Shown here one piece after another: positions 20,360 through 23,785 of a stretch of 53,938 bases of DNA. Below the pieces are notes generated by a model. That model saw only the letters and a list, made by a program, of their open reading frames with translations. It was not told the origin of the DNA and ran no database searches. The translations under genes and the position numbers were made by a program. The DNA lies in contig JAFDEE010000002.1 in the NCBI GenBank assembly GCA_019310525.1, forward strand, positions 1 to 53,938, written 5' to 3'. This DNA comes from Deltaproteobacteria bacterium. Its GTDB lineage: Bacteria > Desulfobacterota > DSM-4660 > Desulfatiglandales > HGW-15. Position 1 is the stretch's first letter. Each line of letters opens with the position of its first letter.

Positions 20360-22924
20360 TCAGGGCTTTCCGCCGTGGCGAGACGATGAAGATTCGTCTT
20401 CTTCACCAATCCGAGACTCTCCCGGATCAGGGAGTGTTATTTCCATTAGTAAGACCCCCACCGTTGAAAGGATCCCGAACAGAAACATCCTCCAGAGTGC
20501 ATGGGACACAATAGTCCCGGCCCCCACGTTTCCGCCTGCCGTCCCAACGAAAAAACCAGAGACCGTTGAAAAGATCCCCAGCATGGCCCCGCAAAGGGTT
20601 CCGCCCGCCACTCGTTTTCCCAAGGGGGCTCCTCCCGCTCCCAGGGTGACCGCCATTCCGCACAGAATTGGAACGATTCCCACAGCCCACCAGATCTCCT
20701 GGAGTGCCGGGAGCCTTGACCATTCGAGAAAATACCGGTAATCCACGAATCCCAGGATGGCCGCCCCAATGAGGGCACAGGGGGCAATATGCCAGTAGCG
20801 GGGCGAAGCAGCGGACCGCATCCTCTCCCTTGATCTTATCTTGCGCCTTATTGTCAGGGGCCAGTTGTAAAAGAGGTTGAAGACCTTGTGTTCCAAAAGG
20901 GCCCCTCTCTCTCCGAACACCGGAACCGCGTGCACGGCCTCGGTCGCCCAGTACCCGGCCATGAACCGGGCCAGGGCGGGATACCTGTAGGCCATCTGGA
21001 TCGGGAATGCGAGGTAGCCCACGTATTTGAAGAATCCCAGGAAAACGGCGATGTTGTAATCTTTGAAGTTCCGCTCGCGGATCACGAGAAGCACAACATA
21101 GAGCCCGCGCACCAGGGATCCGGGTGAAATGGGCACCACTTGAAAAAGCGCGATGATACCCACGCCAACGGCATAGGCCTGGGCCCGGGGTAATTCAGGA
21201 TGCATCAGCACGTAGATGGCGGCCGTCAAGATCGACACCACCTGGGTGACCGGCAGGGTACAAAGGTGTACGGCGAGGCTCTTGAGATATTTCTGGATAA
21301 AGGGTTCCTTGATTTGGGAGATGATGAGGTCGGCATCCTCCCGGCTGAGCAGGTTGTTCTCTTCCCCTTCGCTCACCATGTCCCTCAGCCACTGTTCACG
21401 CAGATGGGCGTTGAAATAGAGACGAACCGGACGGAAGACCAGATGGTCGATGCGCTCCTTGGCATACTGCCAGTCGGTGAAAGCGCGGTGGAGGCCTGCT
21501 GGAAGGATGGAAAGGGGGAAGTGGTAAAGATTGGGCCAGAAGGTCCTTGCCGCCTTTAAGGCGTGATCCGCATCCATCCTGCCGGATCTGTACCAGCCCA
21601 TCACCTTCTCTACCAGTTTGCCCCTGAAGGCCCTCCGCAGATATGAAACGCTCCCCAATATCCCAGTATAATGCCTTCGCCAGGCGGGGTGGCCCCACCA
21701 CTTCAACAGAATTCGGCCGAGCAGAGGGAAAAGATTCAGGATACAAAAAAAGAGGGTAAAGAAGGGCTTTTCCTGGAGCCTGCGGGCATGTTCTTCGTCG
21801 ATGAAGTTTCTTACCCTCCAGCCCATCACTGCACTCCGGAGGATACCGGACCAGATTTCACCTTTGTACAGGAGGCGCAGGTGATGGTGAGTGATATCTG
21901 GTATGGAACGCCTGTAGGTACGTTCCTCTTCTTTGAGTTCTTTCAGGGCTGCGTAAAGGTCGGAGAAGGCCTCTCGCTGTTTTTCGACAAAGCCTTCCAG
22001 CCGGCTGATGTCCCCGCGGTCGAATTGCACCAAGCTGCCTCTCCGAAGTCCCTGCAATATCAGTTTGAAATCGCCCGGGCTCATGGGCAGAAAGGGAAGC
22101 AGGACCAGCCCGGCCCGGAAGTCCACCGCCACCAGTCCCTCTGCAGGATCGGGATCACTCTCAAGTCTCTTCAACACATTGGGCTGACTCTTCCAGGTGG
22201 ACCATTCGTATTGCCTGGCGAATTCGTGGGCTCCCATGTCGTGGAGCAGACGAACGAATGCATGCATGAAGGCATGCTTGGCACGGTATTCAGGGGATCC
22301 GAGCCGTTTCTCATGGACCGCCCTCCCCTTCCGCCACTTCCTGAGCAAATCCAGTCGGTCATCCACTTCCAACCGCCAGGTCCGTCCCTCAATCCATTCG
22401 CTCAGTTCCCCGCAACTCCCCAGGACCGGATCCACAAAGGTGGCATGGATATCGGCCACTGTTCGATCATCACCGAACCGGAGCCTTGCCCCCCTTCGGA
22501 TGAAAATCTGCCAGAGGGCCCCGGCCCTGGCTGCATGGGGATTGACCTGGAGCTGGAAAGGTCCCTGAAATCCGACCCAGTAAAGAGTGTTCCGGAAAAA
22601 CCTCGAGAAACCCGTTGGGGGAACGAGTATCTTCATGGCGTAGTAGCGGTCCTTTTCGAGTCCGACCAGGGGCCCGTCGTGGGGTTCGAGTTGCAATATT
22701 TTCACCCTGTATACCTGTCCGGCAAAACCGCCCCCCACAAACCTATCGATTTCGAGGCGGACCCGTCCCATACTTCCTCCTGGAACGATCGATACCTCAT
22801 AGGTGCAAACCGTACCGGGCTCGTAACGTTCCACACGCATAGGCCGGTGAAGGGCGGCTTTCCGAAACTCCTTCTCTAATTCGGCAAAGATATGGTAGGG
22901 TTCCATCGATTTTTCAGCGTTCAT
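20360..22924 (-). CDS. Kinase-like domain fused to multispan membrane protein
   Basis: No known family recognised for the whole chain of 854 residues. The N-terminal third looks like a protein-kinase or UbiB-type fold: a glycine-rich loop GGGFAGQVY (64-72), AMKIL with the candidate ATP-binding Lys98, a hinge-like LSEWIEGRTW (about 174-183), a catalytic-loop-like segment LLHDMGAHEFARQ...SQPNVL (226-251, with E234 where Asp is expected, N249) and VAVDFRAG (265-272) in place of DFG. From about residue 385 follow at least six or seven predicted membrane segments (near 387-408, 552-575, 585-616, 624-646, 714-730, 745-765, 775-830) and an acidic tail. The ATG at 22924 is preferred over an in-frame TTG at 22939. 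It follows the DMT transporter gene by 33 bp. Activity, substrate and orientation unknown. Confidence 0.7.
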   Translation of the reverse strand: MNAEKSMEPYHIFAELEKEFRKAALHRPMRVERYEPGTVCTYEVSIVPGGSMGRVRLEIDRFVGGGFAGQVYRVKILQLEPHDGPLVGLEKDRYYAMKILVPPTGFSRFFRNTLYWVGFQGPFQLQVNPHAARAGALWQIFIRRGARLRFGDDRTVADIHATFVDPVLGSCGELSEWIEGRTWRLEVDDRLDLLRKWRKGRAVHEKRLGSPEYRAKHAFMHAFVRLLHDMGAHEFARQYEWSTWKSQPNVLKRLESDPDPAEGLVAVDFRAGLVLLPFLPMSPGDFKLILQGLRRGSLVQFDRGDISRLEGFVEKQREAFSDLYAALKELKEEERTYRRSIPDITHHHLRLLYKGEIWSGILRSAVMGWRVRNFIDEEHARRLQEKPFFTLFFCILNLFPLLGRILLKWWGHPAWRRHYTGILGSVSYLRRAFRGKLVEKVMGWYRSGRMDADHALKAARTFWPNLYHFPLSILPAGLHRAFTDWQYAKERIDHLVFRPVRLYFNAHLREQWLRDMVSEGEENNLLSREDADLIISQIKEPFIQKYLKSLAVHLCTLPVTQVVSILTAAIYVLMHPELPRAQAYAVGVGIIALFQVVPISPGSLVRGLYVVLLVIRERNFKDYNIAVFLGFFKYVGYLAFPIQMAYRYPALARFMAGYWATEAVHAVPVFGERGALLEHKVFNLFYNWPLTIRRKIRSRERMRSAASPRYWHIAPCALIGAAILGFVDYRYFLEWSRLPALQEIWWAVGIVPILCGMAVTLGAGGAPLGKRVAGGTLCGAMLGIFSTVSGFFVGTAGGNVGAGTIVSHALWRMFLFGILSTVGVLLMEITLPDPGESRIGEEDESSSSRHGGKP

Positions 22925-22957: not shown

Positions 22958-23785
22958 TCAGTAACGATCTTTTTCAGGTTGGAGGTTCGTCAGGGTAACC
23001 CCTCCGATCACGAAAACACCCCCGACAAGAAGGGAAAGGGTCACCGGTTCTCCCAGGAACAAGGAAGAGAGAAGGATAGCGCTTACCGGGACAAAATTAA
23101 TGAATTGGCCTGCCCGTGTTGCTCCCACAGCCTGAATTCCTTCATAGTACCAAACAAACCCAAGGACCGTTCCAAAGATGCCTAAATAAAGGATGCTCCC
23201 CCAGTCCACAAGATTGTAAGAAAAAAGATCCGGAAAGAGTCCCTCCATTAGGGCGGGAGGGAAGAGGGCCAGTGCGCCGACAATAGAAGAATAGGTTACG
23301 GAAACAAGGGGAGAGAGGCCCCTGCCCGCCATCACCGCCTTCCCGATCAAAGAATAAACGACCCAACTGGCGACACACCCGAAAATAAGCAACTCTCCCG
23401 GCCCGATCCCTTCTTCCAGGATCCCGGCCAGATTCCCCTTGGAGATGACGATCACGGCCCCGAAAACAGACAACAGGATGCCCGCCGATTTGGCCGGTGT
23501 CAACTTCTCCCTTAAAAACAAGGCGGCGAAAAGTGTTATGAAAACCGGATTGTTTGCAATGATGAGGGAGGCCCTCCCGGCGTTGATCATCTGGAGGCCC
23601 TTAAAAAAAAGATAATTGTAAGAAAATACTCCCGTAAGGCCGAGAAGAATCAGCGGAAGGATTTGCCCCTTCCTGATAGGGGAAAAGCTTGACCCGGACC
23701 TCCTGACCAGATAGAAAAGGCAGGCAGAGGCGAATACAAACCTCAAGAAAGCGGCAGAAAAGGGCCCTACCCTCCCTGCGATCAT
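22958..23785 (-). CDS. EamA/DMT family transporter, start unresolved
   Basis: Inner-membrane exporter of the drug/metabolite superfamily; substrate unknown. Two EamA repeats: the second repeat begins at GPGELLIFGCVASWVVYSLIGK, and the C-terminal GEPVTLSLLVGGVFVIGGV is typical. The first ATG in frame (23785) falls inside the first membrane segment. The frame continues upstream and reads TKLLLTSIFWGGTFIAGR, exactly what the family has at this place, yet between there and the stop at 23903 there is no ATG, GTG or TTG. A CTG at 23833 or another rare start, or a sequence error, must be invoked. The gene follows the ferredoxin gene in the same operon direction. Confidence 0.82.
   Translation of the reverse strand: MIAGRVGPFSAAFLRFVFASACLFYLVRRSGSSFSPIRKGQILPLILLGLTGVFSYNYLFFKGLQMINAGRASLIIANNPVFITLFAALFLREKLTPAKSAGILLSVFGAVIVISKGNLAGILEEGIGPGELLIFGCVASWVVYSLIGKAVMAGRGLSPLVSVTYSSIVGALALFPPALMEGLFPDLFSYNLVDWGSILYLGIFGTVLGFVWYYEGIQAVGATRAGQFINFVPVSAILLSSLFLGEPVTLSLLVGGVFVIGGVTLTNLQPEKDRY

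Follow-up and report, generated by a model that had tools for sequence, protein, structure and literature searches.

What function might be served by a protein whose kinase-like N-terminal domain is followed first by a helical and then by a multispan membrane region? The question is raised by an intact open reading frame in a 53,938-nucleotide stretch of deltaproteobacterial DNA (the window), which runs on the minus strand from an ATG at position 22924 to a stop at 20360 (20360..22924), encodes 854 amino acids plus stop, and bears a GGGGGTG stretch resembling a ribosome-binding site immediately 5' of the start codon. A genome search located a single copy of the gene in its own 3.78-Mb genome. 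Pfam yielded no credible-score match for the window protein or for 10 diverse relatives, and neither NCBIfam, PADLOC, nor the sequences of the PDB (searched with a 64-row profile) returned a match, in agreement with the original prediction that no named family accommodates it. The PADLOC result also led us to reject a defence system, and the lack of matches in plasmid and phage collections led us to reject mobile-element cargo.

Here we describe an unnamed, new family of kinase-like proteins, each built from a kinase-like head, a helical linker, a membrane core and a swappable C-terminal module. The family is well conserved and unannotated, occurs in many phyla, and combines an atypical kinase head with a membrane core of unfamiliar fold. 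The kinase fold is known; in the literature searched, we met neither this family, with its mixture of active-site changes, its membrane core and its fusion to PgpA, nor any PgpA-kinase fusion. Conservation was assessed in an alignment of 64 relatives and in a larger set of 104 rows that adds more distant members.

The kinase-like head and its active-site residues

An AlphaFold model of residues 1-342 (pLDDT 82.9, pTM 0.82), together with Foldseek comparison, delimits a kinase-like domain at residues 39-342 (21899..22810, minus strand). The modelled head comprises an N-lobe sheet (39-99 and 159-176), a predicted alpha-C helix (129-150), alpha-E (211-230) and beta7/8 (250-266). Interrogation of the PDB with this model retrieved 62 matches at E<=1e-3, with a best E-value of 2.7e-5, and all 50 of the best matches listed were protein kinases, with a probability of about 1.00, including GSK3, CK2, VRK3 and ROP5. 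TM-scores of about 0.3 (about 0.33) accompanied by rmsd values of mostly 7-9 A suggest an N-lobe of canonical appearance and a divergent C-lobe. The full-length model also returned kinases, more weakly, and the two models concur on the secondary structure of the head. Structure prediction and Foldseek having pointed to protein kinases and not to an unrelated fold, we regard the kinase-like fold of the head as close to certain.

The sequence motifs from which such a domain had been predicted lie where they were reported: GGGFAGQVY at residues 64-72, AMKIL containing K98, SEWIEGRTW at 175-183, KSQPNVL containing N249, and VAVDFRAG containing D268. Their invariance among the 64 relatives and in the 104-row set argues that they are not fortuitous. 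In the smaller set G64-G66, A68-Y72, K98, N249, D268, F269 and R270 are all invariant. In the larger one, every position of the glycine-rich loop (22709..22735, minus strand) except F67 is essentially so, and the three residues singled out for a conservation check, the beta-3 lysine K98 of AMK (22631..22633, minus strand), N249 and D268, are retained in 103/104, 104/104 and 104/104 rows. The hinge-like SEWIEGRTW (22376..22402, minus strand), adjoining a modelled strand at 170-176, has nearly invariant W177, G180, R181 and W183. The catalytic-loop block EFARQYEWSTWKSQPN (residues 234-249; 22178..22225, minus strand) lacks the HRD aspartate, and its residues E234, K245, S246, Q247, P248 and N249 are invariant, with R237, Q238, W241 and, outside the block, D302 invariant or nearly so among the 104 relatives. 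The prediction had the catalytic aspartate replaced within an HEF triplet. The loss of the aspartate holds, in that residue 244, five before N249 and corresponding to the HRD Asp site, is C, W, A, L, G, M or S and never D in the 104 rows, and E234 is present in all of them; the triplet itself is not a conserved unit, H233 being variable. At the DFG position the protein does read DFR (residues 268-270; 22115..22123, minus strand), whereas the two PgpA-fused relatives (L213 and L214) have DFG there, and the most distant members have DWR or DLR. No acidic residue that could represent the alpha-C glutamate occurs within residues 105-150 of either the window protein or the family consensus.

The head thus retains a predicted bilobal fold, a GxGxxG loop, the beta-3 lysine, the metal-binding asparagine and the DFG aspartate. 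Because the residues at nucleotide and metal positions, including the whole glycine loop, are kept throughout the 104 relatives while the N-terminal extension and the C-terminal module drift, the pattern is that expected of an active site and not of a relic. Judged from the alignments, the family has conserved its nucleotide and metal positions and lost the usual catalytic base.

Relationships to established kinase families were barely visible to sequence profiles: hhalign gave no significant alignment to Pkinase (PF00069; probability 2%) or to ABC1/UbiB (PF03109; 1.2%), when a UbiB-Pkinase positive control reached 98%. Membership of Pkinase, for which the protein also falls below the Pfam cut-off, was therefore rejected. 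The family resembles Pkinase in its N-lobe fold, glycine-rich loop, beta-3 lysine, hinge-like motif and the order of its metal-site Asn and Asp, but departs from it in the missing HRD Asp and alpha-C Glu, in DFR for DFG, in the divergent C-lobe, in its unique QYEWxTxKSQPN catalytic-loop block and in its fusion to a large membrane domain. UbiB/ADCK proteins are atypical kinase-like proteins tied to lipid metabolism; membership was rejected here too, as the match lies in the wrong region and the KxGQ motif is absent, and the family has a true glycine loop in place of the Ala-rich loop of UbiB/ADCK. One might argue from the lack of a kinase profile match, and from TM-scores so low, that the order of the motifs is due to chance and the model is wrong, so that no kinase-like domain exists. 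We consider this very improbable, since only kinases appear among the 50 matches listed, at a Foldseek probability near its maximum, the two models agree on secondary structure, the motifs are invariant and in kinase order, and even the faint Pkinase alignment falls in the right register, pairing the glycine loop and the beta-3 lysine.

Linker, membrane core and exchangeable C-terminal module

The last 470 residues had been described as mostly membrane helices. This is accurate for the portion from near residue 541, where the membrane segments are dense; the preceding linker (residues 343-540; 21305..21898, minus strand) is mostly helical, with a single clearly hydrophobic segment at 388-406. 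The membrane core (residues 541-703; 20816..21304, minus strand) is the most conserved part of the protein, its mean column entropy being 1.03 bits versus 1.33 bits for the kinase-like part (104 rows), and R606, Q643, E672, E678 and N687 are invariant within it. Foldseek with the full-length model disclosed no membrane-protein or transporter relative of note. Comparison of the membrane half with LPG_synthase_TM (PF03706) gave a very weak hhalign score (3.8% over 46 columns) at a common P-x-x-PG turn, and there was no Pfam match. A PISPGS turn might resemble the UppP motif EFLPISSSGH; no UppP was present among the 50 Foldseek matches listed.

The C-terminal module (residues 704-854; 20363..20815, minus strand), a weakly conserved four-helix membrane bundle (704-834) followed by a tail, is variable. 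The bundle is missing from one relative of 745 aa (L226) and largely missing from another of 744 aa (L215); PgpA takes its place in L213 and L214, and it gives way to a longer membrane module in two relatives of about 1220 aa from large planctomycete genomes (L224:1985-5647, plus strand; L225:1635-5282, minus strand), in which a faint GDSL/SGNH-type hydrolase end was detected (E 0.02).

Association with pgpA and possible functions

PgpA is phosphatidylglycerophosphatase A, the enzyme that finishes phosphatidylglycerol. Its gene lies directly upstream of the family gene, on the same strand, in 17 planctomycete loci of our first set, and nearby in three more, out of 29. We then drew genomes evenly from the planctomycete class Phycisphaerae, obtaining a second sample of 37 carriers that overlaps the first set in a few genomes. 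In 24 of these, pgpA occurs within 1.6 kb of the family gene or fused to it (22 neighbours and two fusions): upstream on the same strand at <=150 bp in 12/37, convergent and downstream at <=1.6 kb in 10/37, and joined to the family gene in one open frame, with the PgpA domain complete, in 2/37. In the remainder it resides on another contig (10/37) or farther off (3/37). Pfam domain PF04608 was confirmed in all seven neighbour genes tested and within both fusion proteins (1.7e-33 and 3.9e-28), whose PgpA domain retains, where aligned, the signature residues of the free-standing enzyme; the family core itself has no similarity to PgpA. The same-strand and convergent arrangements fall on either side of a tree branch with 99% support, suggesting that proximity has been retained despite differing arrangement. 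Among Phycisphaerae, PgpA is present in 37/37 carriers versus 86/113 non-carriers (Fisher p 3e-4, a value that ignores kinship), and the gene-order counts, sharing ancestry, represent fewer independent events than their numbers suggest. On these grounds a functional tie between the family and PgpA in planctomycetes is likely, and the fusion supplies a first pathway assignment for the family. A CdsA gene (L215:4268-5221, minus strand; CTP_transf_1, 6.9e-52) is also convergent with the short-form relative of that locus, at a distance of 17 bp.

PgpA has another fusion partner in this class. PgpA-UppP/BacA fusions occur in Phycisphaerae genomes where the kinase-like family was not found (L218:686-2020, minus strand; L219:1587-2924, plus strand), from which it appears that PgpA there tends to join lipid-phosphate enzymes. 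Roughly a dozen other PgpA frames, 446-518 aa in length, may represent the same fusion.

The association is circumscribed. No link to pgpA was seen outside Planctomycetota, the window included: the genome to which the window belongs carries pgpA on a contig other than that of the family gene, and PF04608 was missing in five of 17 carriers tested outside Phycisphaerae, that genome among the 17. A conserved operon outside Planctomycetota was likewise rejected, the immediate neighbours there being mixed and apparently unrelated (beta-lactamase-like, Sua5, NamZ, GyrB-type, SmpB, MFS).

The sequence itself accords with either option first entertained, a pseudokinase or a lipid or small-molecule kinase; linkage and fusion to PgpA point to lipids. 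PgpA is Mg-dependent and is predicted to act at the cytoplasmic face of the membrane (PMC11629553), the side expected for a kinase-like head. Partly on this basis we tentatively favour, at somewhat less than even chances, a nucleotide-using transferase, embedded in the membrane, whose acceptor would be a glycerophospholipid or a precursor from the phosphatidylglycerol branch to which PgpA belongs. At the membrane face, the cytoplasmic head would bind nucleotide and pass a phosphate or nucleotidyl group to this acceptor. The lipid would sit in the membrane core (541-703), which would probably also complete the active site and so offset the absent HRD Asp; in Planctomycetota the transferase would work beside PgpA. 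ATP binding, catalysis, the lipid substrate and the use of membrane-core residues are each inferred. The restriction of pgpA linkage to Planctomycetota, the low TM-scores and a membrane core devoid of recognisable relatives count against this transferase. If it is correct, an ATP-dependent player would be added to a branch of lipid synthesis thought complete, and adjacency and fusion to pgpA suggest that a step of membrane-lipid metabolism has so far gone unseen. A more specific and still more tentative formulation has a membrane-embedded enzyme of kinase fold whose novel catalytic loop, E-x-A-R-Q-Y-E-W-x-T-x-K-S-Q-P-N, serves to modify a glycerophospholipid or a polyprenyl-phosphate lipid in an undescribed step coupled to PgpA, at a site completed by residues of the membrane domain.

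Since HRD Asp and alpha-C Glu are both absent, the family may not catalyse at all, and the main rival to a transferase is a lipid transporter gated by a pseudokinase, whose membrane part would move phosphatidylglycerol or another lipid, made by PgpA, across the membrane while the head binds nucleotide or a partner without phosphate transfer. The many invariant polar residues of the membrane core and the very weak LPG_synthase_TM match would suit such a role, and a distant precedent exists in mycobacterial MviN, a membrane protein of peptidoglycan synthesis with a pseudokinase domain (PMC12599244). In both cases a kinase-like domain is attached to a polytopic membrane protein involved in envelope metabolism; the head of MviN, however, has lost ATP binding and has a filled pocket (PMC12599244), whereas that of the family is N-terminal and keeps its glycine loop, K98, N249 and D268 invariant, and its membrane part has no Pfam or Foldseek match to MviN. 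As the whole-model search also brought up no noteworthy transporter, we consider a transporter rather unlikely. Less probable again is a membrane-anchored protein modifier, either a kinase or a SelO-like AMPylator, that would target proteins including PgpA and use its membrane part to sense lipid state. The nearest PDB folds among the matches listed are protein kinases, a fusion to PgpA would suit a modifier joined to its target, and SelO, an active AMPylase, retains Lys, Asn and the DFG Asp although it lacks the HRD Asp (PMC3281104, PMC12409994). The family shares with SelO/YdiU this pattern of loss and retention and a strong conservation across phyla (PMC3281104). It differs in being membrane-embedded and in lacking the alpha-C Glu, which SelO keeps (PMC3281104), and a Pfam library search gave no SelO match above cut-off. 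Moreover, a membrane core more conserved than the head would be odd for a mere sensor, and no conserved partner occurs outside Planctomycetota.

Phylogenetic dispersal and other neighbouring genes

At least 113 relatives were retrieved by a genome scan, the best 80 being 49-65% identical and mostly full-length. They derive from Desulfobacterota, Planctomycetota, Aminicenantes, Fibrobacterota/Chitinivibrionales, Latescibacterota, Gemmatimonadota, Chloroflexota, SAR324 and others, in genomes nearly all metagenome-assembled. Distribution is patchy: carriers account for 4/61 genomes among near relatives (the window's own genome counted), 3/297 in its phylum, 1/119 in the phylum on the Aminicenantes side, 14/392 across Planctomycetota and 37/150 in the class Phycisphaerae. 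No convincing distant paralogue was found in 17 carrier genomes. Phyla are intermingled in the family trees, which is suggestive, and only suggestive, of movement by transfer, perhaps out of planctomycetes, as the bins may be contaminated.

Within the window, an EamA-type transporter gene (22958..23785, minus strand; PF00892, 4.3e-47) precedes the family gene on the same strand, 33 bp before its start, and is a possible operon partner in this genome; downstream, an amino-acid ABC transporter set converges on the family gene. EamA-like genes also occur near relatives in some Desulfobacterota loci (L012, L015, L020 and L025), in other orientations. Many planctomycete loci have two uncharacterised genes following the family gene, encoding about 255 and 153 aa and without a Pfam match (for example L049:8699-9487 and L034:9357-9815, both plus strand), beyond which lie apparent purA, uppS, cdsA and phoH, named by eye from sequence. 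In three loci of the Desulfobacterales type (L009:2932-3273, L010 and L011), a gene downstream on the same strand encodes a 114-aa protein that belongs to no known family.
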